From assembly GCF_023336895.1 (NCBI RefSeq), contig NZ_JAMBLT010000002.1:186001-250000 (forward strand): DNA of 64,000 nucleotides, given 5' to 3'. Source of the stretch: Parasutterella secunda. GTDB lineage: Bacteria > Pseudomonadota > Gammaproteobacteria > Burkholderiales > Burkholderiaceae_F. Numbering within the stretch: the stretch's first letter is position 1; each line of letters starts with the position of its first letter. Below, piece after piece: positions 2,058 to 62,910 of this stretch. The notes beneath the pieces are model-generated. The model saw nothing but the letters and a program-made list of their open reading frames with translations. It was not told where the DNA came from and ran no database searches. A program made the translations under genes and the position numbers.

Positions 2058-3356
2058 TTAGATTTTCTGAAAATTTTCTTTCGTTTTTGATAATTTCATC
2101 GGAAGCAGAAAAATCAAACCCACAACAAAGAACATCCCCGTACACAAAAGAGCCAAGCGTTGATCGTTGCCTGTCACCCAAGTGATCAGTCCATAAGTCA
2201 TCGGACCAATGATATTGGCTACCCACAGCGCCATATTCCAAAATGAATAAAATGCCGCGCGGTCTTTTTCAGGAGCCAGAACACCAACCAAAGCACGACC
2301 TGCTGACTGGCTTGATCCCATTGCAATACCAGCCAAGTTCGCAGCCACCCAAAAAAACGCTTTGGTTTGAGCAAAATAAGCCACGCCCACCATGGCTATC
2401 CAAATAAAAAGCGTCACGATTAAGGCATTTTTGTGACCAATACGATCCTCCACATAGCCAAAAGCAAAGGCTCCGATTGCCGCGGTGATGTTGACGAGCA
2501 ACACAAGGAGAATCGTTTCGTCCGGCGAAAATCCCATGGCTTGATCGGCGTAAACCGCGGCCAGTGTCACCACAACGGCGATTCCACCTTGGAAGAAGAG
2601 ACCGCTAGCAACCAACCAGGCAAAATTTCGGTGAGCGGGCAGACTTTTGAATGTTTTAATAAGGCTGGTTTGGGATTCTTTAACCAAAGACCAAAATGAT
2701 GATTGGGTTCTAGGCACGGCTCTTTCTTTTAGCCATAAAGCAAGAGGTAGGGCTGCGATAAAAAAGATAACCGCCGTGATGAGCATAGTGTAGGGGACAT
2801 AATCCTCAGCAGTAAATCCCTTTGACTGCATAGCCAAAACGACAGCCAAGCTTAACCCCAAAGTCAAAAGACCACCGCAATACCCAAAACTCCATCCCCA
2901 ACCGGAGACTTTCCCAATGGAGCGGTCGTCGGCGATTTCGGGCAAGAAAGCAGAATTAAGCGTCTCTCCAACGTTATAGGCGAAATTGCTGACAATGACC
3001 ATGAGAACGGCCCAGACAATCGTACCGGTGCCGGTAAAAGCCAAACCGACGGTGCCCCCGATACAAATCAAACTCATCAACACCGTCCAAAATTTTTTAT
3101 TGGCTTTAAGGTCACTGGCCGCACCAATGAGGGGCATGGAAACAATAGCCAAAATATTGCTTGCCGCGATAACCGTTGTCCAAAGAAGTGTCGCCCAAGA
3201 AGCTTCTTCACAAATCACGCTGACAAAATAAGCATTAAAAACCGTTGTGAGGACAACGGTCGTATAGCCGGAATTCGCAAAATCAAAGGCCGCCCAAGAG
3301 AGCACCTCACGGCCTGAAACGCCTTCTTTTAAATGCTTAAGTGAAAATAGCGACAC
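2058..3356 (-). CDS. UMF1-family MFS transporter (Atg22-like)
   Basis: A 432-residue polytopic inner-membrane protein with about 12 hydrophobic helices. The N-terminal AAFDFANSGYTTVVL motif (residues about 22-36) is the signature of the UMF1/Atg22 branch of the major facilitator superfamily, suspected exporters of amino acids or other small solutes; the substrate is unknown. The GTG start at 3356 has a good AAGGA seven bases upstream. The gene follows the deacetylase-like gene by 11 bases on the same strand, so the two are probably cotranscribed. Its 3' end abuts the remnant of an ATPase gene. Confidence 0.9.
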   Translation of the reverse strand: MSLFSLKHLKEGVSGREVLSWAAFDFANSGYTTVVLTTVFNAYFVSVICEEASWATLLWTTVIAASNILAIVSMPLIGAASDLKANKKFWTVLMSLICIGGTVGLAFTGTGTIVWAVLMVIVSNFAYNVGETLNSAFLPEIADDRSIGKVSGWGWSFGYCGGLLTLGLSLAVVLAMQSKGFTAEDYVPYTMLITAVIFFIAALPLALWLKERAVPRTQSSFWSLVKESQTSLIKTFKSLPAHRNFAWLVASGLFFQGGIAVVVTLAAVYADQAMGFSPDETILLVLLVNITAAIGAFAFGYVEDRIGHKNALIVTLFIWIAMVGVAYFAQTKAFFWVAANLAGIAMGSSQSAGRALVGVLAPEKDRAAFYSFWNMALWVANIIGPMTYGLITWVTGNDQRLALLCTGMFFVVGLIFLLPMKLSKTKENFQKI

Positions 3357-3367
3357 TCTTGGATCCT

Positions 3368-4300
3368 TTACACATGGGCTAATGTTCTGATGTGGGCAAC
3401 AACCGCTCTTGAAAGACTCCGAGGCTCATAGCCGCCTTCGAGCACGCTGACGATTTTTTCATCACAAACGCTACGCGCGATATCATCAATGATTCGTGTG
3501 ATATGGGCATAGTCCAAATCAGAGAAATCCAGCCCCGACATAATATCGGCCATATGAGCGTCAAAACCAGCCGAAATTAAGATAAGCTGTGGATGACAGT
3601 CGCGAATTAAAGGCTCCCACTTGGAACGAATCACTTCACAGGCCGCCTCTCCTCTGTCACCGGCCGCAAGCGCGAACTTGTGAATATTAGATGCTAAACT
3701 CTCAAGCTTCGGATACGGGAAAATCTCTTTTTCAAAAAAAGAGAAGAAATGAATACCCTCAAGCCCAGCCAGAATATCCTCGGTCCCATCACCATGGTGC
3801 GCGTCAATATCTAAGACTGCCATTCGCTCAATGCCCAAAACATCTCTTGCGTAAAGCGCCGCAATCGCCACATTGTTGAAAATACAAAAACCTTCCGCTT
3901 TATCTCGATGAGCATGATGACCCGGTGGGCGCACACAACAAAACGCATTGGTGAGTTTGCCAGAGTGGACTTCATCAAGCGCTTCAAGTACACAACCCGC
4001 GCTTTCTAATGCGGCCGTCCACGAATCACGGCTCACAATCGTATCCTCACTGATATAAATCAATTCACCTTCTTTTTGGGGAATCAAAGAGCGAACGTGG
4101 TCGACGTATTGTTGATCATGGGCACGTAAAAGATCCTCTAAAGAAGCCTGGCGCTCGGTCTGTTTCCGACAAAAAGCACTTTCCAAACCCGAAGCAACCA
4201 ATCGCTCCTCTATCGCTCGAATTCGCTCAGGCGAATCCGGACTCGAGAATCCTGTGATGTGGCGATAACACGATTCGTGGGTAAATAGACCTGTTGACAC
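3368..4300 (-). CDS. Histone-deacetylase-like amidohydrolase
   Basis: A 310-residue zinc hydrolase of the arginase/deacetylase fold. Visible active-site motifs are RPPGHHA (near 124), FCIFNNVAIAA, DIDAHHGDGT (near 166) with Asp and His zinc ligands, SAGFDAH with the second Asp, and LEGGY near the end. In bacteria such enzymes deacetylate small molecules such as polyamines or acetoin-related compounds; the substrate is not predictable here. The start is GTG at 4300, preceded by AAGGA at six bases. It leads a two-gene unit with the UMF1 transporter, which might export or import its substrate or product (inference). Confidence 0.9.
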   Translation of the reverse strand: MSTGLFTHESCYRHITGFSSPDSPERIRAIEERLVASGLESAFCRKQTERQASLEDLLRAHDQQYVDHVRSLIPQKEGELIYISEDTIVSRDSWTAALESAGCVLEALDEVHSGKLTNAFCCVRPPGHHAHRDKAEGFCIFNNVAIAALYARDVLGIERMAVLDIDAHHGDGTEDILAGLEGIHFFSFFEKEIFPYPKLESLASNIHKFALAAGDRGEAACEVIRSKWEPLIRDCHPQLILISAGFDAHMADIMSGLDFSDLDYAHITRIIDDIARSVCDEKIVSVLEGGYEPRSLSRAVVAHIRTLAHV

Positions 4301-4360
4301 AAATAATCCTTGTTTTTTCTTTGATTTTAACCGTTACCCACAATTAATTCGTCAATCTAT

Positions 4361-4440
4361 ATCGAACAAAATTTTACTTTCTTGTCATTCTGTTCGACAT
4401 ATCGAACAAAAATTTAAAATTAATCAAAATTGTTCGATAT
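4361..4440. repeat. 40-bp iteron-like repeats upstream of the first ATPase
   Basis: ATCGAACAAA occurs at 4361 and 4401, and TGTTCGAYAT at 4391 and 4431, each pair exactly 40 bp apart. At 4391-4408 the two elements meet to form the palindrome TGTTCGACATATCGAACA. The rest of the unit is almost pure A/T. The last copy ends about 31 bases before the ATPase start, where a promoter or operator would lie. I read this as a binding array for a DNA-binding protein, possibly the ATPase itself. Confidence 0.7.
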
Positions 4441-4471
4441 AATAGCTAATAATAAAAAAAGGGGAACAAAA

Positions 4472-5716
4472 ATGAGCGAACTCTTAGTACCTCGATCTGA
4501 TCTATTGGAAAAGATCAAACCGTTTTACAACGATTTAGATTTGATCAAAGTTTTAACCGGTATGCGACGTACCGGCAAATCCACCCTTTTTGAACTTATC
4601 AAGGCAGATATTTCCAATTCTTTACACCTTAAAGACAACCATTTCTTGAGTATTAATTTTGAAGATATCCGTTGGCGCTCGCTTCCCCTTGAAGAGATTC
4701 ATGAAAAAATATTGCACTTTGCTCAACAACAAACCCCATCTTTTGTTTTTTTAGATGAAGTACAGAATGTTGATCGCTGGGAAATCATGGTGAATTCCCT
4801 TCGTCAGCACGCCATTGCCAGTATTTTCATAACCGGTTCCAATTCAAAATTATTATCCGGAGAACTCGCCACTCATTTAAGCGGTCGTTACGTTTCTTTT
4901 GAAGTTTTCCCTTTTTCATTTAAAGAATTCGTCCTTTGTAATAAAGGAAACTCTGATTTATCAATAAATGAAATTTTTAATACCTACCTCACAGTCGGAG
5001 GAATGCCCGCCTGGGCTCATGGATTTTCCAAGCGCCCCTTTGAAGCTTGGCAACAGTACTTAAGCGACCTTTTTGACACCATTTTTATTAAGGACATCAT
5101 CTCGCGACGTCAAATCCGTGATGTTGAACTATTCAAAAAAGTTCTCCGTTACCTCTTTGACCAAACCGGGCATCCAATATCAATCGCTTCCCTGGCCAGA
5201 TATTTGAAATCTGAAGGGCGAGCACCCAGCAAGGAAACCTTGGCCAATTTTATTGAGGCTGCCTGCGAAGCTTTTATTTTCGAAAAAATGAATTTTGAAA
5301 CGGCCGAAGGTAAACGTATGCTAGCCTTCAACCATAAGTTTTACATCAATGATCATGGCTTGCGTCAGGCTTTGTTTTTATCTAACCAAATAAATATTGA
5401 TCAGATATTAGAAAACATTGTCGCGATTGAGTTACGCAGACGTGGTTGGAAAGTAAGCATTGGAAGAATTGCTTGCGCTCAAAAACCGTCGAAAGAACTT
5501 GAGGTTGACTTCATAGCGAGAAAAAACAATCAAACCCTCTATGTTCAAGTGGCCTATTTACTAGCCAATAAGGAAACCGAAGAACGTGAATTCGGGGCAC
5601 TTTTATCAATACCGGATAACTTCCCGAAGGTTGTACTTAGCTTGGACCCGATCTTGAGACCGCAAAAAGGCATTGAACACCAAGATCTTCGGCAATGGCT
5701 TTTATCGGAATGGTAG
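4472..5716 (+). CDS. AAA ATPase with DUF4143-type nuclease-like tail (COG1373)
   Basis: A 414-residue cytoplasmic protein. Walker A is GMRRTGKST (residues 30-38), Walker B is FVFLDEVQ (about 90-97), and the C-terminal part has ELEVDF...LYVQVAY (about 342-360), the PD-(D/E)XK-like core seen in this family with Gln in place of the usual Lys region. The ATG at 4472 follows AAAAGGGG, and is preferred over an upstream TTG. The gene stands alone, directly behind a 40-bp repeat array. The family is abundant in gut bacteria, often multicopy, and its role is not established; defence or mobile-element functions have been suggested only by distribution. Confidence 0.88.
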   Translation: MSELLVPRSDLLEKIKPFYNDLDLIKVLTGMRRTGKSTLFELIKADISNSLHLKDNHFLSINFEDIRWRSLPLEEIHEKILHFAQQQTPSFVFLDEVQNVDRWEIMVNSLRQHAIASIFITGSNSKLLSGELATHLSGRYVSFEVFPFSFKEFVLCNKGNSDLSINEIFNTYLTVGGMPAWAHGFSKRPFEAWQQYLSDLFDTIFIKDIISRRQIRDVELFKKVLRYLFDQTGHPISIASLARYLKSEGRAPSKETLANFIEAACEAFIFEKMNFETAEGKRMLAFNHKFYINDHGLRQALFLSNQINIDQILENIVAIELRRRGWKVSIGRIACAQKPSKELEVDFIARKNNQTLYVQVAYLLANKETEEREFGALLSIPDNFPKVVLSLDPILRPQKGIEHQDLRQWLLSEW

Positions 5717-5787
5717 AACACTCTAAAAAAGTCGTATTTTGTTTTAGAATTCAGAACTGAATTGTTCTACTCTTTTCTCGCTCATTG

Positions 5788-6348
5788 ATGAAACGCTTAC
5801 TTGACATTGTGTTGATTTTGCTTTCGCTACCAATCATGTTACCTGTAGCGTTAATCGTTGCCATTGCTATTAAGCTTGATTCTCCCGGCCCTGTCTTATA
5901 CTGGTCTGAACGTATTGGTCGAAATGGAAGGCCATTTATCATGCCGAAATTTCGTTCCATGAGTGTTGGTGCACCCATTGTAGAAGCTGAAAAATTCACC
6001 AATGCCGGCAGCTACATCACCAAGGTTGGAGAATTTATTAGAAAAACCAGCCTAGACGAAATTCCTCAGTTCTGGTCGGTTTTAAAAGGTGACATGAGTC
6101 TTATTGGCCCCAGACCGCTTTTGCCGATTGAAACCCATGTTTTGGAACTGAGAAAAGCGGCGGGCGTTGATAAGCTTTTACCCGGAATTTCCGGTTGGGC
6201 TCAGATTAACGGGCGCACATGCATAAGCGGCGATGACAAGGCTAGCTTAGACATCGAATATATGAAAAAGCGCTCTCTCTTATTTGATATCAAAATCATT
6301 CTGTTGACGATCTGGAAAGTCATCAAGCAGGATGACATTGTTCATTAG
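5788..6348 (+). CDS. Initiating sugar-phosphate transferase (PglC/WcaJ-type)
   Basis: A 186-residue monotopic phosphoglycosyl transferase, the short catalytic form. It would move a sugar phosphate from a UDP-sugar to undecaprenyl phosphate at the inner face of the cytoplasmic membrane, starting a glycan. Evidence: one re-entrant hydrophobic helix (about 4-26), SPGPVLYWSERIG, KFRSM, the catalytic Asp-Glu in SLDEIPQFW, SLIGPRPLL and PGISGWAQINGR. It sits alone between two repeat-linked ATPases, 17 kb from the LPS genes. ATG 5788 follows an in-frame TTG; no strong ribosome-binding site is seen. Confidence 0.92.
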   Translation: MKRLLDIVLILLSLPIMLPVALIVAIAIKLDSPGPVLYWSERIGRNGRPFIMPKFRSMSVGAPIVEAEKFTNAGSYITKVGEFIRKTSLDEIPQFWSVLKGDMSLIGPRPLLPIETHVLELRKAAGVDKLLPGISGWAQINGRTCISGDDKASLDIEYMKKRSLLFDIKIILLTIWKVIKQDDIVH

Positions 6349-6370
6349 TTGATCGCTTTTTCTCCATTCA

Positions 6371-7729
6371 CTAAACAGCCAGAGCTCCAATGTCTACTCG
6401 GTGGAGCCATTGTCTAGGCAATTGGTCTGCCTTCAAAAACATCACCATGTACCAAGGTAAATAAAGAATGCGTTCATCGCTGTCCACATTACCTTGACAC
6501 AAAACAACGGCCTCGGATATTCCCCAATCTTTTACATCCAAAACATTATTTAATGCCGCATGTAACTTAAAACTTTTCCCGGACTTCACCTCAACCGGCA
6601 AAACTTTTCCATTCTTCTCCACAACAAAGTCAACCTCTCCGTGTCGAATTGAATTGAAATACCTTAATGGGAAACCATTCGCCAGAAGTTGTTGAGCCAC
6701 CGCGTTTTCAAGAATACTGCCCCAATTGACAGAAACATCACCATTAAGCAATGCGAATTGAATGTTTTGCGCGCAGGCAGCAGTCAATAAACCGGTATCA
6801 CAGAGATAAAGTTTAAATAAATTGTGTTTTTCGTTTAATTTAAGCGGAATGGTTGGCTGCGTGACGTTGTAGCAGGCAAGCGCGACGCCCGCATCATTGA
6901 GCCATAAAAAAGAGCTTTCATACCGATTTTGTCTGGCATTTTTTTCCAAAGACGACAAAGTAAAGCGCCTGTTCTTTTCATCCAACTGCCCGGGGATGGC
7001 ATCAAAAATACGATGAATCTTATTGCTATTTTGAGTAGAGTATTTGACTATGTCCTGTCGATAAAGAGCCAGAATCTCTCGCTGAAAAGAGATCACTTGC
7101 ACGATATCGTTCGTAGACACGAAAATATTCACCGCTTCCGGCATTCCCCCGACCACGAGATATGAATAAAATAATTTTTTCATCGTCTCGTGAATCAATT
7201 CGCTGACAGGACGTTTATTCAAGTACGCGTCATGTAACAATTCAATTGTCTTTTTCTGAACGCCATTGGCCCAACAAAATTCCTCAAAATCCAAAGGATA
7301 CATGGTGACCGGTTCTTCAAACCCAACCGGCAAAGAGGGAACGGATTTTGTACTAACACCCAATAAAGAACCGGATTCAATGTAGTCAAAACGACCGTCT
7401 TCGACTAAAAACTTAATAGCCACCCGAGCTTGTGGACACTCTTGAATTTCATCCAAAAAAATTAATGTATTGCCAATTTCAAGCGGTTGTCTGACATAGG
7501 CTGTTAAGTTGGCCAGTAACTCCTGAGGGCGCAATGAACCGGAAAATATCGTTTTAGACAAAGGGTCATTTAGAAAATTTATCTCAACGAAATGCTTGTA
7601 CTGCTCTTTACCGAATTGCCGAATGAGTGTTGTCTTCCCGACTTGTCTTGCCCCCGATATACAAAGTGCCTTTCTTCTTTTTTGTGATTTCCATTGAAGC
7701 AACCTTGCATAAAGTTTTCGCTCTAACAT
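6371..7729 (-). CDS. AAA ATPase with DUF4143 and PD-(D/E)XK-like tail
   Basis: A 452-residue protein, distant paralogue of the ATPase at 4472. Walker A is GARQVGKTT (residues 26-34), Walker B is LIFLDEIQ (89-96), and the C-terminal end carries HGEVDFVV...LPVEVKSGK (about 364-385), an intact E-D-E-K nuclease-like signature. I prefer the ATG at 7729 because GGGAG lies five bases before it; the ATG nine codons upstream has no ribosome-binding site. It lies tail to tail with the sugar transferase and is preceded by three 33-bp repeats. Function is unknown. Confidence 0.88.
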   Translation of the reverse strand: MLERKLYARLLQWKSQKRRKALCISGARQVGKTTLIRQFGKEQYKHFVEINFLNDPLSKTIFSGSLRPQELLANLTAYVRQPLEIGNTLIFLDEIQECPQARVAIKFLVEDGRFDYIESGSLLGVSTKSVPSLPVGFEEPVTMYPLDFEEFCWANGVQKKTIELLHDAYLNKRPVSELIHETMKKLFYSYLVVGGMPEAVNIFVSTNDIVQVISFQREILALYRQDIVKYSTQNSNKIHRIFDAIPGQLDEKNRRFTLSSLEKNARQNRYESSFLWLNDAGVALACYNVTQPTIPLKLNEKHNLFKLYLCDTGLLTAACAQNIQFALLNGDVSVNWGSILENAVAQQLLANGFPLRYFNSIRHGEVDFVVEKNGKVLPVEVKSGKSFKLHAALNNVLDVKDWGISEAVVLCQGNVDSDERILYLPWYMVMFLKADQLPRQWLHRVDIGALAV

Positions 7730-7770
7730 CTCATCTCCCAACGCTAATCTGGTCATCTAATAATGAGTAT

Positions 7771-7850
7771 TGTAACGTTTTTTAAATATTTTTAATGGGA
7801 TTTTGTAACGTTTTTTAGATTTTTTAAGAATTAAAATGCTACGTTTTTAG
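7771..7850. repeat. 33-bp iteron-like repeats upstream of the second ATPase
   Basis: TGTAACGTTTTTTA begins at 7771 and again at 7804, and a decayed copy, TGCTACGTTTTTAG, at 7837. The spacing is exactly 33 bp both times, and the filler is nearly pure A/T. In the ATPase reading direction the units read as an A-run followed by CGTTACA, ending about 42 bases before its start. The core differs from that of the other ATPase locus, although the architecture is the same. Confidence 0.7.
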
Positions 7851-7871
7851 AATTTTTGACTCCTTATAAAC

Positions 7872-7906
7872 AAAAAATGGAGAGTTCCTCATTCAAAGAA
7901 CTCCCC
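7872..7906 (-). terminator. Intrinsic terminator of the purF operon
   Basis: On the minus strand a 9-bp stem (one G-U pair) formed by 7898-7906 and 7879-7887 with a 10-base loop is followed after one base by six T (7877-7872). It stands 27 bases after the purF stop. Confidence 0.85.
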
Positions 7907-7932
7907 AATTAAAGACCTAATCGTCTAATCGA

Positions 7933-55146: not shown

Positions 55147-56453
55147 TGTATTTGGATAAAGCACTTCAATTCGTCTCCATCGGTTTGCTCGTTTACTTAC
55201 CGATTAATGCCTATGCCTATCTTGATCCTGGCACGGGCAGCATGCTTTTGTCTGTATTGATCGGATTGACTTCGAGCGCTTACTTTCTGGTGAGAAAACT
55301 GCCGAGTATGGTGCGTTCAGTCTTTTTTAAATTCACGGGTAAAAAAGACGATCTGAAGAATAATTCCATCGTGTTTTACGCCGAGTCGGCTGCCTACTGG
55401 TCAACCTTTAAACCGGTTTTGGAAGCGCTTGCCGCTAAAAATGTTCGCTGCACCTATCTCACCAGCGATGAAAACGATCCCGTTTTTAAAAACGGCTTGG
55501 ATAAATGGGTTCACGCGAAATTTATCGGTAAAGGGCAAACCGCCTACACCGCTTTGGGCTTTTTAGAAGCCGATGTGTTTGCTCTGACAACCCCGGGCGT
55601 TGACGTTCTTCAAATCAGACGTTCCGCTGGCGTTAAAAAGTACGTCCACATTGTCCATGCCGCAGGCGACATCCACACCTATAAGTTCTATAGCTTCGAC
55701 TACTATGATGCCTTTTTCTGCGCGGGCCCCGCACAGGCCAAAAGCCTTCGTGCACTGGAATCCTTAAGGCACACCAAACCCAAGGAATTGCCTCTCTTGG
55801 GCTGCCCCTATTTCGATGGCATGCTTAGCCGAAAAACAGCCGACTTAAAGCCCGATGACGATACCATCCTTATTGCGCCGACGTGGGGTAAAAACGGCTT
55901 ATTGACCAGAACGGGATCCATGATTCCGAAACTTTTAGCGCAGGCGGGCTATCACGTCATTTTGCGCCCCCACCCGCAAAGCTTTATTTCCGATAAAGAG
56001 CTTATGGAAAAACTTCAGTCGGAATTAAAAGCGTTTGACAACATCGAGTGGGATAGAAATCCCGATGGCTTTAAGAGTTTGAGCCGCGCCCAACTGATGA
56101 TTTCTGACGTCTCGGGCGTTATTTTTGATTTTGCTTTCATCTTCCTGCGTCCGGTTATCTCCGTTGGCAACGGTCCCTTAAAGGATGGCTTTGAAGCCTG
56201 GGAAATTCCTCACGAAGCCTGGGAAATGCAAGCGCTCGATAGTCTCGGCAAACGCGTTTTGCCGGGAAATGAAGAGAATATTCCCGCTTTGGTTAAAGAT
56301 CTCTTGATGCGTCACGAAGACATGGCAAGCCGCATTGAAGCCATTCGACGTGAAAACGTTGTCAATTTCGGGCACGCGGGAGAACCGATCGCCCAAGCCT
56401 TGATTGATATGGCTAACTCCGTTCACACTCAGAAGACTCACAAAAATGATTGA
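55143..56453 (+). CDS. CDP-glycerol glycerophosphotransferase-family enzyme
   Basis: 436 residues. The N-terminal part is a membrane anchor with YLDPGTGSMLLSVLIGL; the GT-B-like transferase domain of the TagB/TagF family follows, with ILIAPTWGKNGLL, VILRPHPQSF and MISDVSGVIFDFAFIF. Such enzymes transfer glycerol phosphate, or related alcohol phosphates, from a CDP-linked donor to a membrane-bound or glycan acceptor at the cytoplasmic face. Gram-negative examples occur in capsule loci. Here the donor is probably made by the cytidylyltransferase at 51095. Confidence 0.88.
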   Translation: MMYLDKALQFVSIGLLVYLPINAYAYLDPGTGSMLLSVLIGLTSSAYFLVRKLPSMVRSVFFKFTGKKDDLKNNSIVFYAESAAYWSTFKPVLEALAAKNVRCTYLTSDENDPVFKNGLDKWVHAKFIGKGQTAYTALGFLEADVFALTTPGVDVLQIRRSAGVKKYVHIVHAAGDIHTYKFYSFDYYDAFFCAGPAQAKSLRALESLRHTKPKELPLLGCPYFDGMLSRKTADLKPDDDTILIAPTWGKNGLLTRTGSMIPKLLAQAGYHVILRPHPQSFISDKELMEKLQSELKAFDNIEWDRNPDGFKSLSRAQLMISDVSGVIFDFAFIFLRPVISVGNGPLKDGFEAWEIPHEAWEMQALDSLGKRVLPGNEENIPALVKDLLMRHEDMASRIEAIRRENVVNFGHAGEPIAQALIDMANSVHTQKTHKND

Positions 56454-59319
56454 CTTTTTATATACCCTTTTCATCGCTCCGCTTGAATATTGGATGCACA
56501 AGGCCCTGCTTTGGGGATTCGATATCACCCAACAGTGGGGATGGGCCATCATCGTGATGAGTCTTATCGTCAACTTTGTGATTCTGCCCATCTACATGAA
56601 GGCTGAAGCCTGGCAGGAAGAAGAAAGAGCTCTTCGCAAAAGCTTTGAAGCTAAGGAGCAAATGATTAAGCGCGCCTATAAGGGTCAAGAGCGCTTTGCC
56701 ATGATCACGACGATGCATCGACAGGCCGGTTACTCACCGCTATTGACCCTGCGATCAAGCATCGGTTTTTTCCTGCAGATTCCGTTTTTCTTTGCGGCTT
56801 ACCATTTCCTAAGCCACTTTGAACCGTTACAAGGCATTTCGTTTTTAGGATTGACCGATCTTTCAAAGCCTGACGAACTTTTCAAAATCGGAGACTTTGC
56901 GATCAACTTCATGCCGATACTGATGACGGTCATCAATATCGCCAGTGCCCTGATTTACACCAAAAATCTCTCCAAGCGTGACAAGTACCAACTCTACGGC
57001 ATGGCCGCGCTCTTTTTGGTGCTTTTATATAACGCCGCCTCAGGCCTGGTGCTTTACTGGACCTTCAACAATATCTTCTCGCTTGGCAAGAATATTGTTT
57101 ATGACCTGGTGCGCCACTTTGCCAACAAACTTCGTGGGTTGGGTCTTCTTATTAAAAGCACTTGGCTTAAGATTTTTGCCTTCACCGATAGCGGCACAAC
57201 CTTTCAAAGCAGCCCCTCTATCGTAAACGGTTATCTTGTCTACCTCTGGGGCTTGGCTGTCGCTCTGGCCGTTTTAAGCAGTAATCAGATCACTTGGTTT
57301 AGCGATGGTCTCAAGCTTTCTTTAAGTGCCTATTCTGACTACGCTTTTCTTTTGCTCGCAGCATGCGCCGTTATCGAATGCGTCAGACTGCGCATGTGGA
57401 AGCACCCCATTGCCCTGATTCTCATTGCATTGCTTTTGTACTATGAACTCAACACTTGGTACAAATGGAGCTGTCTCGGCTTAAATCGACGCTACTTTGC
57501 TCTGAGCGCCTCTTTTGCGTTCCTGATCATTTCGCTCACGCTTACTAATTTCAAGTTTGGCTTAAAGAATCTGCTCTATCCGAGTGAGTCCAAGCCCGCT
57601 GCGCTCTTAACACCGGGTGCTATCTGGCTTGTTATTCTTTTAGCGTTTTATCTGCCGATTCAAGCTTTCAGCACGGCTCCGGAAGGCTTCTCGCGTATTG
57701 AAGAAGTGCTCGCCATGCTTTTAGCCTGTGTGTGCGTCGCAGGCGTCATTTTCTGGTGCCTGACTAAGCTTTTTGAATTGACCCGTTACGCGGATTTCGC
57801 TGGCTACACCTTTGCGTTCATTTCGCTTTTAATGACCGTCTATGCGTTCCTGCTGCCTTTGAACGTCGGAACGATCAATGCGTTTATCATCGCCAACCCA
57901 GAGCCCCTTTTCCGCAATGTCAACGTTGTGGTTGATGTCGTGGTGATCACTTTATTTTCCATTGTTTTCGTTTGGCTTATCCGCAGCAATAAAGTCGTCT
58001 GGATTAAAAATATTTTGATACTGTGCATTGCGGGCAGTCTCTTTAATTCTGTCTTTATTCTCTGGTCCACACAGGAAGCCTGGTCTCGAGACGCCGAAAA
58101 CACACAAACAGTCGATTTACCGGACTATAATGATCGACTGTTCGGTTTTAGCAAAGAAGGGCAAAATGTGGTTGTCGTGATGCTTGATGCTTTCGCGGGA
58201 CGTCACTTAGATCGCATCATGCAAGAAACACCAGCATTAAAAAACCGATACAAAGGCTTTACTTGGTATCGCGAAGCGTTGGCAACCGGTCCTTCCACTA
58301 TTTCGAGCCTTCCGTCCATTATTTGTGAAGAAGCTTGTACCCCTTGGGAATTAAATAAGGACGAAAACCTGACACTGGCTGAAAAAGTCAATCGTGGCTT
58401 TGCCAATACACTTAATCGTTTCGGACCGTCTTTTGATGTCTCGCTTTACGAAAGAAACTGGACGGAAAGAAACCGCTTGGCCAAATACACAAGCCATCAG
58501 CCATTATTAATCCGCAACATCGGCGACAGCTACATTCGCCGTTATGCGGCCGAAAACAATCTCAAAATTGACCGCGGCAACAGCGACAGTTTCTTGATTG
58601 CTGTGAGTTTCTTTAATGCCGTTCCTTGGGGACTTAAAAACATGATCTACAAGGACGGCCGTTGGATTGAACGTCTGATGGGTGAAAGTACTGCCGCTTT
58701 GGTTTACAACACCTACCGTGATCTGGCGTTATTCAAGCTCCTGCCCTCGGTATCCAACATCCGTGCGCAAAAAAATACGTTCAAGTTCATCGATTCGGAA
58801 TTAAGTCACTACCCGTGGTTTTCTGAACCGGGTAGCTGCAAACTCTTGCCTTACGAAACCCCCGGAACGCGTCCGGATGGAATTCCGATTGGGCAAATGG
58901 CGGCAGAAACTTGTTCCCTCCAAGCCTTGGGTGATTGGTTTGATTGGATGAGAAAAGAAAAAATCTTTGATAACACCACAATTGTGGTGGTATCGGACCA
59001 TAGCTCTGGCTTCGTGCCGGAGTTATCCGCCGTTAACCGAAAGGGCTCTGTGGGCCGTCCAAGCTCGCTCTTACTGATTAAACCGCAAAAAGCAAACGCC
59101 AATGCTCCGCTGCAAATTAGTGATGATTACGTCGGGATTGTGGATACGATGAAATTTATCTTTGCATCGCTCAATAACCAAAACATTCGCGTCAACAAAG
59201 CGACTCGTTATACGTTTGTCCCTGATGGGCTGACCGCCAATCAGTACCGCGAGGAGAAGTTCTGGAAAGTTGAAGGCTCAATGTTTGATGAGCGCTCTTG
59301 GAAGGATATTTCCCATTGA
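56446..59319 (+). CDS. YidC/Oxa1-domain fused to a sulfatase/LtaS-like domain
   Basis: 957 residues. Residues about 1-225 form an insertase domain: WGWAIIVMSLIVNFVILPIY, a charged cytoplasmic hairpin, FFLQIPFFFAAYHFL, INFMPILMTVINIASALI and AASGLVLYWTFNNIFSLGKN, in the order seen in YidC. About 260-540 is a further block of some 9-10 helices. The last 390 residues are an alkaline-phosphatase-fold domain with VVVVMLDAFAG (metal Asp), GPSTISSLPSI (nucleophile Thr/Ser position) and TTIVVVSDHSSGF (Asp-His), as in LtaS, OpgB or EptA transferases. ATG 56446 overlaps the previous stop by 8 bases. A separate housekeeping yidC is expected elsewhere; it is not in this window. Confidence 0.88.
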   Translation: MIDFLYTLFIAPLEYWMHKALLWGFDITQQWGWAIIVMSLIVNFVILPIYMKAEAWQEEERALRKSFEAKEQMIKRAYKGQERFAMITTMHRQAGYSPLLTLRSSIGFFLQIPFFFAAYHFLSHFEPLQGISFLGLTDLSKPDELFKIGDFAINFMPILMTVINIASALIYTKNLSKRDKYQLYGMAALFLVLLYNAASGLVLYWTFNNIFSLGKNIVYDLVRHFANKLRGLGLLIKSTWLKIFAFTDSGTTFQSSPSIVNGYLVYLWGLAVALAVLSSNQITWFSDGLKLSLSAYSDYAFLLLAACAVIECVRLRMWKHPIALILIALLLYYELNTWYKWSCLGLNRRYFALSASFAFLIISLTLTNFKFGLKNLLYPSESKPAALLTPGAIWLVILLAFYLPIQAFSTAPEGFSRIEEVLAMLLACVCVAGVIFWCLTKLFELTRYADFAGYTFAFISLLMTVYAFLLPLNVGTINAFIIANPEPLFRNVNVVVDVVVITLFSIVFVWLIRSNKVVWIKNILILCIAGSLFNSVFILWSTQEAWSRDAENTQTVDLPDYNDRLFGFSKEGQNVVVVMLDAFAGRHLDRIMQETPALKNRYKGFTWYREALATGPSTISSLPSIICEEACTPWELNKDENLTLAEKVNRGFANTLNRFGPSFDVSLYERNWTERNRLAKYTSHQPLLIRNIGDSYIRRYAAENNLKIDRGNSDSFLIAVSFFNAVPWGLKNMIYKDGRWIERLMGESTAALVYNTYRDLALFKLLPSVSNIRAQKNTFKFIDSELSHYPWFSEPGSCKLLPYETPGTRPDGIPIGQMAAETCSLQALGDWFDWMRKEKIFDNTTIVVVSDHSSGFVPELSAVNRKGSVGRPSSLLLIKPQKANANAPLQISDDYVGIVDTMKFIFASLNNQNIRVNKATRYTFVPDGLTANQYREEKFWKVEGSMFDERSWKDISH

Positions 59320-59369: not shown

Positions 59370-59537
59370 GATTAACGGTTTAATACTGAAAACAAAAGAG
59401 ATAACGTACTTTGACAAAACCGACGATTTTTTAATCTTTCAGGCATCCAATGGGGACAACCAATACACCATCTACATGATCTAATACATGATTTAATACA
59501 TATTGGAATAACATTATTGCAATTCATTCAGAATCAA

Positions 59538-59629
59538 CGAACTATTTGACGATTTTTCATCGAACTATTTGGCAATTTTTTAACACACTACTTGGCGCTT
59601 TTTTAGCGAACCATTTGGTTATAGTTTTG
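59538..59629. repeat. Orphan array of four 23-bp tandem repeats
   Basis: Units start at 59538, 59561, 59584 and 59607, exactly 23 bp apart. The first half of the unit is CGAACTATTTGGC (variants CGAACTATTTGAC, CACACTACTTGGC, CGAACCATTTGGT) and the second half a T-run. The array lies in the gap between two terminators (59370-59702) with no gene. It has the look of the arrays in front of the two ATPase genes, but no ATPase or obvious remnant lies here. Confidence 0.75.
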
Positions 59630-59736: not shown

Positions 59737-62700
59737 TTATTTACCGTCGCTTGGTTCTTCCGGCTTTTCCGGATGACTCAAGAAAGGTGAAGCACGTTCA
59801 TCCTCATCGTCATCATCTCGCCGTACCGGATTCTTAGAGACGAACCAAGTAAAGTAGACCGGCACAAAGATAATGGCGATAAATGTGGCAACCAACATTC
59901 CGCCTAACACACCGGTACCCATGGATTGGCGAGCAGCCGCACCGGGACCGGTAGCCAAAGCCAGAGGCACCACACCAAGAATGAAAGCAAAAGAGGTCAT
60001 CAAAATCGGACGCAACCGTAAAGAGGCTGCCTCAAGAGCCGCATCAAAGACACTCTTACCCTGCTCTAACTTCTGGGCGGCAAATTCCACAATCAAAATG
60101 GCATTCTTGGCCGATAGGCCCACTAATACCAATAAACCGATTTGGAAGTAAATATCGTTCGAGAGTCCCCGGCAATAAGTTGCGAGCAACGCCCCCAACG
60201 CGGCAAATGGCACCGCGAGCACAACGGCGATCGGCAACGACCAACGCTCATACTGAGCAGCCAAAATGAGAAACACCACAATAATGCCGAAAATGAAAGC
60301 TGTGGAAGCTGAAGCTCCTAAACGCTTTTCCTGGAAGGCTTGACCGGTCCAACCGATAGCGTAACCTTCCGGGAGCATTTCATCTCCGATGCGTTCCACT
60401 TCCGCGATGGCTTCACCGGAACTCACCCCGTGAACCGCCTCACCCATAAAGCGCGCAGCAAGATAGCCATTCATGCGCGACATGGTCTCAGCACCTGATG
60501 TTCTCTCCCAAGACACCAATGTAGACATCGGAATCATTTCACCGACGTTGTTTCTTACCCATGAGCGCCCCAAATCCTCAGGCTTCATACGGTAGTCGGT
60601 GTCCGCTTGCATAATTACGCGATTAATTTTGCCGTTACGCGTGAAGTCATTGATATAGGTACTGCCCATAAAGGCTGAGAGCGTATCGTAGATGTCTGAA
60701 ATAGATACGCCCATGGCCAAGGCCTTTGCTTCGTCAACATTGACCAATAACATGGGCGATTCGGCCATGGCCGTGTGACGAACACCGGTTAAAAGGGGCG
60801 AACGGCTCAACTCATCAATAAAGTTATCGGCCACTTGCTGCAACTGAACCGGATCATCGCTTTCTCGAGATTGCAAAAATCCTGAGAAACCGCCCGAAGA
60901 CCCCAGACCTCTGATTGGCGCCGGGGTTGAAGCCGTGGCTCTGCCCTCGGTAATGTCTTCGGCCATCTTCGTGAGAATTTGAACAACGTCATTGGCCGTA
61001 TTCTTACGCTCATCCCAAAGCTTAAGCTTCAGCACAAAAGTGGCGGCGTTTTGTCGTGTGTCATTGGCAACCGTATCAAAGCCCGTCAGGGTCAAAACGG
61101 ATTCCACCCCCTCGATTTGACCCATTTTCTTTTGCAGTTCATCGGAAACTCGCTCGGTACGGGTTTGTGAAGCACCTTCCGGTAACGAAAGACTCAAACG
61201 AACAACCCCTTGGTCTTCTCTGGGCACAAAAGAGGTCGGTGTAATCTGAACCATCTGCCAGCAGGCCGCCATGACCGCTAAAAGCAACACGCCGCTTGCC
61301 ACTCGATGATGAAGAGCCAAACCCACCAGGCGTTGGAATAACTTCGTAAAGCGTCCCAAGCCCAAATTAAAGCGTTGGAAGAATTTCGCCGGATCTTTGG
61401 TTCGGGGTTTAAGCAAAATGGCACAAAGCGCAGGTGTGAGCGTCAAGGCCACAAAGCCTGAAAGGGCGACGGAAATCGTGATCGTCACAGCAAACTGACG
61501 ATAAAGTTCACCGGCCATGCCGCCCAAAAACGCAACCGGCACAAACACTGCCGAGAGCACTAACACAATAGCCACCAGGGCAGCGGCCACTTCCTTCATA
61601 GCCCGTTTGGCAGCCACCCGCGCTGAGACCCCCTCAGAGACCATGATGCGCTCGACGTTTTCTAGCACCACAATGGCATCGTCGACCACAATACCAATGG
61701 CTAGCGTCATGGCAAAAAGCGTAAGCGTATTGAGTGAAAAATCAAACGCCCACAATCCCACCATCGTCCCAATCAAAGAGACAGGGACCGCGATCATCGG
61801 AATGAGGGTTGCGCGCCAGCTTTGCAAGAAAAGGTAAACGACAAGGAGCACCAAAAGACCGGCTTCAACCAATGTCTTTGCCACCTCGTGCAATGAGGCA
61901 GACACAAAGATCGTCGTATCGTCCGTGATGGTGTGGGTAATGCGGCCTTTTGGATAGTGCTGAGCCAGTTCTGCCACGCGCTCTTTCACAAGCTCAGCCG
62001 TACTCATGGCGTTGGCACCCGTTTGCAGGTACACAGCCACGGTAATAGCCGGCGCACTGTTTAAAAGGTTGTAGGAATCGTAGCTGCGTTTACCGACTTC
62101 AACCCGAGCGATATCCTTTAAGCGAATAATGCCATCGGGACCATCGGAGCGAATCGTAATGTTTCCGAATTCCTCTTCAGTTAAAAGCTGACCTTCGGTG
62201 GTCACCGTGTAAAAAAGCTGCTGATCGGGAGCCGTCGGCGCTGCGCCCACGCGGCCGGCCGCATACTGTTGGTTTTGAATATCAACGGCATTTTCAACGT
62301 CGCCCACCGTCACACCCAACAGAGCCATTTTGTCGGGATTGAGCCAAATACGCATGGCCCCTTGAACGTTACCGAAGATACTTACGTCGCCCACGCCCGG
62401 AATACGCTTTAAGTCATCGACAATGTTAAGCGTCGCATAGTCAGCCATTTGCGTTGGATTCATCGACCCATCGGGCGATGTTAACGCCATCATCAAAAGG
62501 GTTTCTTCGGAGCGCTTTCTCACCGTCACGCCGTTTTGACGAACCGTCTCGGGTAGCCGTCTTTCGGCTGTACGCACACGGTTATTGATTTCAAGCATGG
62601 CGTCATTCGGATCAATGCCGACTTCAAACGTACAGGAAATGCGCACATCACCGTTAGAGCGCAAAGAAGTGGTGTAATACTGCAGTCCCTCAATACCCGA

Positions 62701-62910
62701 GAGCTGATCTTCAATTGGAGCGGCAATGGTACGAGCAAGCGTCTGAGCGTCTGCCCCTTCGTAGCTTGTTGAAATGGATACACTTGGAGGAGAAATGTCC
62801 GGATATTGAGACAGAGGCAAAATGCGCGCGCAAACCAAGCCTGCGAGCACAATCAATATGGACATCACGGATGCAAAAATCGGACGGCGGATACAAAATT
62901 GCGACAGCAT
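59737..62910 (-). CDS. RND multidrug efflux permease (AcrB/MexB type)
   Basis: 1057 residues, the inner-membrane trimer of a tripartite pump of the HAE1 group. The start MLSQFCIRRPIFASVMSIL, the paired proton-relay Asp in AIGIVVDDAIVVLENVER (TM4, near 410) and FVPVYFTWF near the end are typical. An acidic patch (RRDDDDEDERASP) closes the C-terminus. Its start lies 12 bases after the adaptor gene. Uses the proton gradient to expel drugs, dyes and perhaps bile salts; the substrate range cannot be read. Confidence 0.96.
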   Translation of the reverse strand: MLSQFCIRRPIFASVMSILIVLAGLVCARILPLSQYPDISPPSVSISTSYEGADAQTLARTIAAPIEDQLSGIEGLQYYTTSLRSNGDVRISCTFEVGIDPNDAMLEINNRVRTAERRLPETVRQNGVTVRKRSEETLLMMALTSPDGSMNPTQMADYATLNIVDDLKRIPGVGDVSIFGNVQGAMRIWLNPDKMALLGVTVGDVENAVDIQNQQYAAGRVGAAPTAPDQQLFYTVTTEGQLLTEEEFGNITIRSDGPDGIIRLKDIARVEVGKRSYDSYNLLNSAPAITVAVYLQTGANAMSTAELVKERVAELAQHYPKGRITHTITDDTTIFVSASLHEVAKTLVEAGLLVLLVVYLFLQSWRATLIPMIAVPVSLIGTMVGLWAFDFSLNTLTLFAMTLAIGIVVDDAIVVLENVERIMVSEGVSARVAAKRAMKEVAAALVAIVLVLSAVFVPVAFLGGMAGELYRQFAVTITISVALSGFVALTLTPALCAILLKPRTKDPAKFFQRFNLGLGRFTKLFQRLVGLALHHRVASGVLLLAVMAACWQMVQITPTSFVPREDQGVVRLSLSLPEGASQTRTERVSDELQKKMGQIEGVESVLTLTGFDTVANDTRQNAATFVLKLKLWDERKNTANDVVQILTKMAEDITEGRATASTPAPIRGLGSSGGFSGFLQSRESDDPVQLQQVADNFIDELSRSPLLTGVRHTAMAESPMLLVNVDEAKALAMGVSISDIYDTLSAFMGSTYINDFTRNGKINRVIMQADTDYRMKPEDLGRSWVRNNVGEMIPMSTLVSWERTSGAETMSRMNGYLAARFMGEAVHGVSSGEAIAEVERIGDEMLPEGYAIGWTGQAFQEKRLGASASTAFIFGIIVVFLILAAQYERWSLPIAVVLAVPFAALGALLATYCRGLSNDIYFQIGLLVLVGLSAKNAILIVEFAAQKLEQGKSVFDAALEAASLRLRPILMTSFAFILGVVPLALATGPGAAARQSMGTGVLGGMLVATFIAIIFVPVYFTWFVSKNPVRRDDDDEDERASPFLSHPEKPEEPSDGK

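Follow-up and report, generated by a model that had tools for sequence, protein, structure and literature searches.

The window analysed here is a 64,000-nucleotide stretch of the Parasutterella secunda genome (NCBI RefSeq assembly GCF_023336895.1, contig NZ_JAMBLT010000002.1, positions 186,001 to 250,000), in which two neighbouring members of the AAA/DUF4143 family, designated ATPase 1 and ATPase 2, are each preceded by a short array of tandem repeats (Table 1). The array pattern is more general than these two genes, and the period of the repeats is fixed by the clade of the protein across many phyla. A sequence-only reading of the window had proposed that each ATPase, or a partner, recognizes its own array, either for self-regulation or as a replication/partition-like unit. 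Self-regulation is the likely function of the arrays; replication or partition is not.

Two ATPase genes, each preceded by its own array

Array 1, upstream of ATPase 1, consists of three 18-base-pair (bp) sites starting at 4351, 4391 and 4431, an exact 40-bp period. Site 2 is the sole complete palindrome of the three, with half-sites TGTTCGA and TCGAACA around a CATA spacer, while the TGTTCGA half of site 3 directly abuts the -10-like TATAAT (4438-4443). This hexamer belongs to the sole promoter-like site found for ATPase 1, which extends to the gene-proximal end of the array; the prediction is weak alone, as shuffles of the region yield 0.8 such sites. TGTTCGA is not enriched in the window (8 occurrences against 9.5 expected), and four of the eight lie within the 76 bp of array 1. 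The full palindrome has one exact copy in the window, and at least one match with up to two mismatches also arises in 31 of 100 shuffles of the window.

Array 2, upstream of ATPase 2, repeats TAACGTTTTTT at 7773 and 7806 and a degenerate CTACGTTTTTA at 7839, at an exact period of 33 bp. The promoter scan returned nothing on the coding strand of ATPase 2, and the TACAAT there was read by eye. The open reading frame (ORF) of ATPase 2 opens at 7756; the ATG at 7729 was adopted as the start because alignments to the top-scoring PADLOC models begin there. With this start, the distances of 31 and 42 bases between array ends and genes given in the sequence-only reading hold within a base, and its 40- and 33-bp spacings are exact, the third copy of array 2 being degenerate. 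The shared plan that it saw in both arrays stands as to promoter position and exact period; it does not extend to the kind of repeat, array 1 being palindromic and array 2 a directional direct repeat, or to the period itself (40 versus 33 bp).

Table 1. Coordinates of the two ATPase genes, their arrays and domains, and a gene-less array in the window
Feature	Coordinates	Strand	Description
Operator site 1, ATPase 1	4351..4368	.	Right half TCGAACA (4362-4368) intact; centre about -90 from predicted +1; read from sequence
Operator site 2, ATPase 1	4391..4408	.	Full palindrome TGTTCGACATATCGAACA; centre -50.5 from predicted +1
Operator site 3, ATPase 1	4431..4448	.	Left half TGTTCGA (4431-4437) intact; right half replaced by TATAAT
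Predicted sigma-70 promoter, ATPase 1	4414..4443	+	TTAAAA-18-TATAAT, 10/12 matches
ATPase 1	4472..5716	+	414 amino acids; AAA_14 + DUF4143; PDC-S01 model PDLC04787; clade A, 40-bp arrays
Winged helix, ATPase 1	5123..5347	+	Residues 218-292; from helix/strand order of the model; presumed DNA reader
C-terminal domain, ATPase 1	5396..5641	+	Residues 309-390; read as PD-(D/E)XK-like; D346 kept, Q359-V-A at E-x-K
ATPase 2	6371..7729	-	452 amino acids; AAA_14 + DUF4143; PDC-S01 model PDLC04792; clade B, 33-bp arrays
C-terminal domain, ATPase 2	6497..6724	-	Residues 336-411; read as PD-(D/E)XK-like; E365, D367 and E380-V-K382 invariant in clade alignments
Winged-helix region, ATPase 2	6803..7027	-	Residues 235-309; read from the model
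Array 2, gene-proximal copy	7773..7783	-	AAAAAACGTTA on coding strand, then CAAT; -10-like TACAAT by eye
Array 2, middle copy	7806..7816	-	33 bp upstream of gene-proximal copy
Array 2, third copy, degenerate	7839..7849	-	TAAAAACGTAG on coding strand; 33 bp further out
Gene-less array, four copies	59534..59618	.	Core GAACTATTTGGC + T run; 23-bp period, as in clade C

For each ATPase, the direct-repeat score of the 150 bp upstream was reached by none of 60 dinucleotide shuffles. Both arrays escape Tandem Repeats Finder at score 40, since the repetition is limited to short cores. Dispersed (REP-like) repeats were considered and rejected as a source of the arrays: the array 1 palindrome has one exact match in the whole genome, and the array 2 pattern turns up twice across 31 genomes, each time in the same syntenic gap.

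In type III toxin-antitoxin systems, tandem repeats stand before one gene, with a promoter upstream of the repeats and a terminator between repeats and gene. The tandem repeats upstream of a single gene recall this layout, in which the array would be transcribed into a repeat RNA that neutralizes the protein. Such an arrangement is barely credible here, given that the predicted -10 of ATPase 1 is found where its array comes closest to the gene (a prediction that is weak alone), that a terminator scan of the gap between array and gene found none on the coding strand of either ATPase, and that many relatives in a mixed set of family genes (described below) carry one palindrome instead of an array.

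Domain architecture and structural relatives

Both proteins match PDC-S01 models of PADLOC over nearly their whole length (E = 6.8e-132 for ATPase 1 and 2.6e-179 for ATPase 2), and the Pfam profiles AAA_14 and DUF4143 score above cut-off in both. Their structure models, with mean pLDDT confidence of 91.9 for ATPase 1 and 85.3 for ATPase 2, contain an AAA domain and a winged helix. The top structural match by VIA is the archaeal AAA+ ATPase PABY2304 (2qen; Z of 19.0 for ATPase 1 and 16.7 for ATPase 2), followed by archaeal SSO1545 (2fna; Z of 18.2 and 15.3). CED-4/NLR and Orc1/Cdc6 folds rank below these for both proteins (VIA and Foldseek), the Orc1/Cdc6 structures that match the AAA and winged-helix fold including 2qby, 1w5t, 1fnn and 2v1u, of which 2qby and 2v1u are Foldseek hits. 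The winged helix of both ATPases lies inside the range aligned to 2qen and 2fna; the structural alignments stop near residue 300-320 and hardly cover the C-terminal domain. Searched by sequence against solved structures, ATPase 2 matched nothing, and ATPase 1 matched FemX and cytochrome b562 alone, both weakly.

The C-terminal domain is read as PD-(D/E)XK-like from its motif, its strand order, weak below-cut-off matches of the ATPase 2 domain to YraN/Cas4 profiles, and the published description of the family (PMC12988326). In clade B alignments, the E, the D and the E-x-K of this motif are invariant. The motif is degenerate in clade A alignments, where the D is kept, Q replaces the E of E-x-K and the K is absent. 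In both ATPases, the predicted winged helix, as the presumed DNA-binding domain, is encoded within the transcript that would be controlled.

Repeat period follows protein clade

For the repeat spectrum, periods of 12-60 bp were scored in the 140 bp upstream of each gene, with significance counted at z >= 2.5 within one base. Clade A was represented by relatives of ATPase 1, the best 80 of 568 from GTDB genomes, of which 77 were used together with 10 tree genes (n = 87) after L205, L206 and L254 were dropped as partial or at a contig edge. Clade B was represented by relatives of ATPase 2 at 25 loci from viral contigs; the removal of L276 and L280-L282, which were partial or weak, left 21, and the removal of identical upstream ends left 16, to which 10 tree genes were added (n = 26).

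Each clade has a single peak. In clade A this stands at 40 bp (39-41; mean z 2.65), with all other periods between -0.3 and 0.4, and in clade B at 33 bp (32-33; mean z 7.1), with periods except 32 and 33 between -0.9 and 0.7. A significant repeat at 40 ± 1 bp is found upstream of 50 of the 87 clade A genes, while period triplets excluding 39-41 give 2-14 of 87. At 33 ± 1 bp, 25 of 26 clade B genes are significant, and outside 31-35 bp only 0-4 of 26. Among the loci fetched after the periods had first been noticed, that is with the tree genes removed, the counts are 45/77 in clade A and 15/16 in clade B.

A second set was drawn from viral contigs, requiring an ORF with E < 1e-20, a start codon, 140 bp of upstream sequence, and a last 70 bp not already represented. 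For clade A it gave a repeat at 40 ± 1 bp in 19 of 53 upstream regions versus 4 of 53 downstream regions, with 1-8 at the other sampled triplets, a weaker result than that of the first set. Few new genes of clades D and B were present in these contigs. Clade C in genomes has a 23-bp period with its double at 46 bp, and 23 ± 1 bp is significant in 16/29 upstream versus 3/29 downstream regions (14/27 upstream without the two genes of P. secunda itself), counts that are not independent because several of these genes have one common core. Clade E, with 23-bp palindromes (L027, L043 and L042), had no relatives among the viral contigs, so its period rests on few genes. According to record titles, clade A hosts include Firmicutes, Bacteroidota, spirochaetes and methanogens. 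A chance origin of the arrays is rejected on the shuffles, the downstream controls and the other-period controls. No general rule separates a palindromic clade A from a directional clade B: a palindrome of at least 4 pairs is present in 20 of 50 repeated segments of clade A and in 7 of 25 of clade B.

Core sequence follows protein identity

While the period is constant within a clade, the letters of the core are not. Judged from the sequences of 39 clade A and 21 clade B genes with a core of 8-30 bp, the core covaries with protein identity. In clade A, operator similarity at z > 3 is found for 55% of 20 pairs sharing at least 60% protein identity, 8% of 50 pairs at 50-60%, 3% of 289 pairs at 40-50% and 0% of 382 pairs below. 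The trend is weaker in clade B, with 21% of 14 pairs at 60% or above and 0% of 196 below. The correlation obtained with the whole protein was reached by 3 of 500 Mantel permutations in clade A and 10 of 500 in clade B. The best operator predictor in clade B is the winged helix (0.228), with the AAA domain at 0.186.

Array position relative to the promoter

The position of the array was measured in the 40 of 87 clade A genes that have 180 bp of upstream sequence and a promoter with at least 10/12 matches. In 18 of these, ATPase 1 included, the centre of the best palindrome falls between -47.5 and -52 from the predicted +1. Within -65 to -35 the count is 21 of 40, against 16.5% in shuffles. A preferred distance between palindrome and promoter argues for transcriptional control. 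In ATPase 1 the third half-site touches the -10 box, and position leaves the sign of the regulation undecided.

Copies in the genome and genus

The 2-Mb genome contains 12 DUF4143 profile matches on five contigs, six of them on one 295-kb contig and one broken by a stop codon. Ten of the 11 intact genes were tested, C13:37473 having been left out as falling short of the family cut-off (E 1e-8), and every one of the 10 is preceded, within 150 bp, by a direct or inverted repeat whose score is reached by at most 1 of 60 shuffles; in seven it is reached by none. The repeat cores of these paralogues differ by eye. No upstream repeat was seen by eye for C13:37473. The broken match, a clade A copy just outside the window (G000:C2:182887; L012 about 2260-3412), has apparently coding DNA directly upstream and no array by eye.

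A first mixed set comprised 62 genes from 31 genomes at the same cut-off, omitting eight further ORFs (seven in which no Walker motif was found and one without a start). By either repeat test, 31/62 upstream versus 14/60 downstream regions beat all 60 shuffles, and by direct repeats alone 19/62 versus 4/60.

In the 80 clade A loci, no recurring partner gene was found among ORFs of at least 90 amino acids, recurring groups of more than 3 loci being inspected. Two such groups (23 and 4 loci) mostly overlap the ATPase gene itself where coordinates were checked, and one (6 loci) is ABC-transporter-like. Clade A genes thus behave as a single-gene system.

The absence of a partner bears on two alternatives. 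The arrays might be bound by a different host regulator and not by the ATPase. Separate repressors of defence genes are known; in the accessible part of the source, the RptR protein of a defence island is an autorepressor that acts on its promoter at three direct repeats with a short palindrome (PMC12255303). RptR, as described there, is a separate repressor acting on 9-bp repeats, whereas here the presumed reader is the effector and the spacing is 23, 33 or 40 bp. A host regulator is very unlikely, since the cores differ by eye among paralogues of one genome, no partner gene was found to recur in the 80 clade A loci, and across many phyla period and core track the clade of the ATPase, a behaviour not expected of a host factor.

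Orc1/Cdc6 initiators bind repeats beside their own gene. Given the likeness of the ATPases to them in fold and of the arrays to iterons or centromere repeats, the array could be an origin or centromere and the ATPase an initiator or motor, the replication/partition-like unit of the sequence-only reading. That part of the reading is highly improbable and is not retained. Partition of the ParABS type pairs a motor with a centromere-binding protein, and no such second gene was found to recur in the 80 clade A loci. Unlike the Orc1/Cdc6 arrangement, the family has many copies per genome, with the array at the promoter and no sign of an origin. The 12 matches in one genome, six of them sharing a contig, related species without the ATPases between the same neighbours, and the palindrome at its preferred promoter distance in part of clade A all speak against such a unit. 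The GC skew of the window is mostly negative, with no lasting switch at 4-8 kb.

The gap occupied by ATPase 2 is readable in four other species of the genus. In three of these, both gene and array are absent, and in one of the three ATPase 1 is likewise missing from its place between the same neighbours. In the fourth, whose PurF is 95% identical, ATPase 2 is absent and a three-copy array is kept in the same gap.

Proposed mechanism and points against it

It is fairly probable that the array of each gene is occupied cooperatively by the ATPase which that gene encodes, and that the protein controls its own promoter in this way, most likely as a repressor, so that a candidate defence effector is kept low. 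Each gene would form a cassette by itself within the PDC-S01 / COG1373 family, its product being an AAA ATPase that also contains a winged helix and, at the C-terminus, a PD-(D/E)XK-like domain. The winged helix would read a private operator array at the protein's own promoter, making the ATPase itself the predicted array reader. The protein would bind as a cooperative oligomer, the geometry of which may set the period at 40 bp in the clade of ATPase 1 and at 33 bp in that of ATPase 2. As the array abuts or overlaps the promoter, its occupancy would set the level of the ATPase, most likely through repression, and a potentially harmful effector, with a presumed anti-phage role for both ATPases, would stay low until an event such as phage infection releases it. 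The self-recognition with locus-specific addresses put forward by the sequence-only reading is supported by the clade-fixed period, by the tracking of protein identity by the core and by the promoter distance in 18 of 40 genes.

A number of observations weigh against this interpretation. Neither a lack of repeats in most relatives nor an absence of covariation was found, either of which would count against self-recognition, although 37 of 87 clade A genes have no significant 40-bp repeat. In the mixed set, no repeat outscored all 60 shuffles for 31 of 62 genes, and inverted repeats alone contrast less (24/62 upstream versus 12/60 downstream, terminators counted). Clade C genes from viral contigs peak at 22/44 and not at 23/46 bp, with 23 ± 1 bp significant in 5/12 upstream and 1/12 downstream regions, and the signal of clade D is weak (mean z of 2.1 at 32 bp; 33 ± 1 bp in 4/11 versus 2/11 downstream). 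With regard to position, a second group of palindromes lies at -82.5 to -90.5, one period upstream, in 7 of 40 clade A genes, which barely exceeds the 11% that shuffles give in -95 to -80, and the clade A palindrome abuts the -35 box instead of covering it, which activation would fit too. Taken overall, operator similarity and protein identity are only weakly rank-correlated (0.11 in clade A and 0.17 in clade B). The reader domain is not pinned down, because the clade A operator is predicted better by the C-terminal part (0.150) than by the winged helix (0.117). Pairs with similar operators are also close relatives, so that shared descent of the upstream DNA is not separated from selection.

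It is also conceivable, if unlikely, that the array serves as a platform or sink on which the effector is assembled and kept as an inactive ATP-dependent oligomer, in the manner of Orc1/Cdc6 or STAND proteins, with release as the activating step and transcription secondary. This would agree with a clade-fixed period despite a changing core, with a fold nearest to 2qen and 2fna and then to CED-4/NLR and Orc1/Cdc6, with the invariant PD-(D/E)XK residues of clade B, and with the three arrays found without a gene. The degenerate nuclease motif of clade A speaks against it, and ordinary cooperative autoregulation accounts for identical anatomy. A bolder version is more doubtful still: the ATPase would have to assemble on its private array to be both repressed and catalytically silent, invaders would trigger it by dislodging it or competing for it, and the three gene-less arrays, as leftovers of gene loss, would be decoys or immunity marks against an incoming cognate cassette.

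Relation to known systems and significance

BrxR/CapW regulators contain a winged helix. They are described in the accessible portions of the sources as transcription factors of defence loci, and differ from autoregulating ATPases in being, as far as those portions go, separate regulators with WYL domains and no fusion to an ATPase or nuclease.

The closest described system is PDC-S01 of PADLOC, a fusion of an ATPase with a domain of the PD-(D/E)XK superfamily that is listed among the single-gene candidates in the accessible text of PMC12988326 and that both proteins match. The same text describes PDC-S01 as very common, gives validation of most phage-defence candidates (PDCs) as pending, and does not mention promoter arrays (PMC12988326); the degenerate nuclease motif of clade A is a further difference. 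In a rumen survey, PDC-S01 is the most frequent individual locus according to the part of the source available (PMC13356809). A DUF4143 gene of Thermus thermophilus rises 6.6-fold with a plasmid in Argonaute-positive cells, again from partial text (PMC4406477), and this may be a faint hint of inducibility. A literature search covering titles and the openings of abstracts, with subscription papers and preprints outside its scope, found no description of promoter arrays for this family. The statement of the sequence-only reading that no function was described for such pairs thus holds for the arrays and not for the family, which carries the PADLOC label of a phage-defence candidate.

The arrays give a common family of defence candidates one predicted DNA ligand per protein. 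A period that marks the clade together with a private core offers a route to the trigger through promoter reporters and a subtyping rule for the family. It also raises the question of how an AAA protein fixes a pitch of 23, 33 or 40 bp while the letters that are read vary freely.

Gene-less arrays and other observations

The array kept in the fourth species lies at L156 3820-3897, in the gap that matches window positions 6350-7930; two of its cores are identical to those of array 2 and the spacers have diverged. Beside it is a disrupted piece of another ATPase, this one of clade A (E 4e-6). The same species has a three-copy orphan array of 40-bp period, TGTTCGATATATCGAATA (L091/L164), between hemN- and alaS-like genes, which we take to be hemN and alaS. 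This array is followed by a possible 20-residue C-terminal ATPase remnant, to which ATPase 1 is closest among 62 ATPases, the match being weak (E 0.002 for one query, 50%).

The gene-less array of the window lies between a YidC-type (60KD_IMP) ORF (56404-59319) and an AcrB-type RND pump (59737-62910). No DUF4143 gene or remnant was found beside it, and its pattern occurs nowhere else in the 31 genomes.

Three ATPases from IMG/VR (L271, L274 and L275) share a GTGTGATT-type array core with the genus copies L013, L031 and L054. L274 and L275 have 72-86% protein identity to L013 and L054; the core likeness of L271, which has no significant 33-bp score, is by eye only. A core common to IMG/VR and genus ATPases suggests that gene and array were transferred together.

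A 26-bp intergenic element, CTGTCAACCAATTTCAGGCAAGGTCA, is present with up to 2 mismatches in 7 copies in 3 of 9 genus genomes, at sites that include L019 1157, L014 1782, L046 695 and L156 3100. One copy lies between a 500-amino-acid ORF and a sugar transferase; a Pfam search of the 500-amino-acid ORF in the HDAC-side gap of a sister species gave no match. Three copies precede family ATPases at a distance of about 100-140 bp, and the element is perhaps the end of a mobile element.

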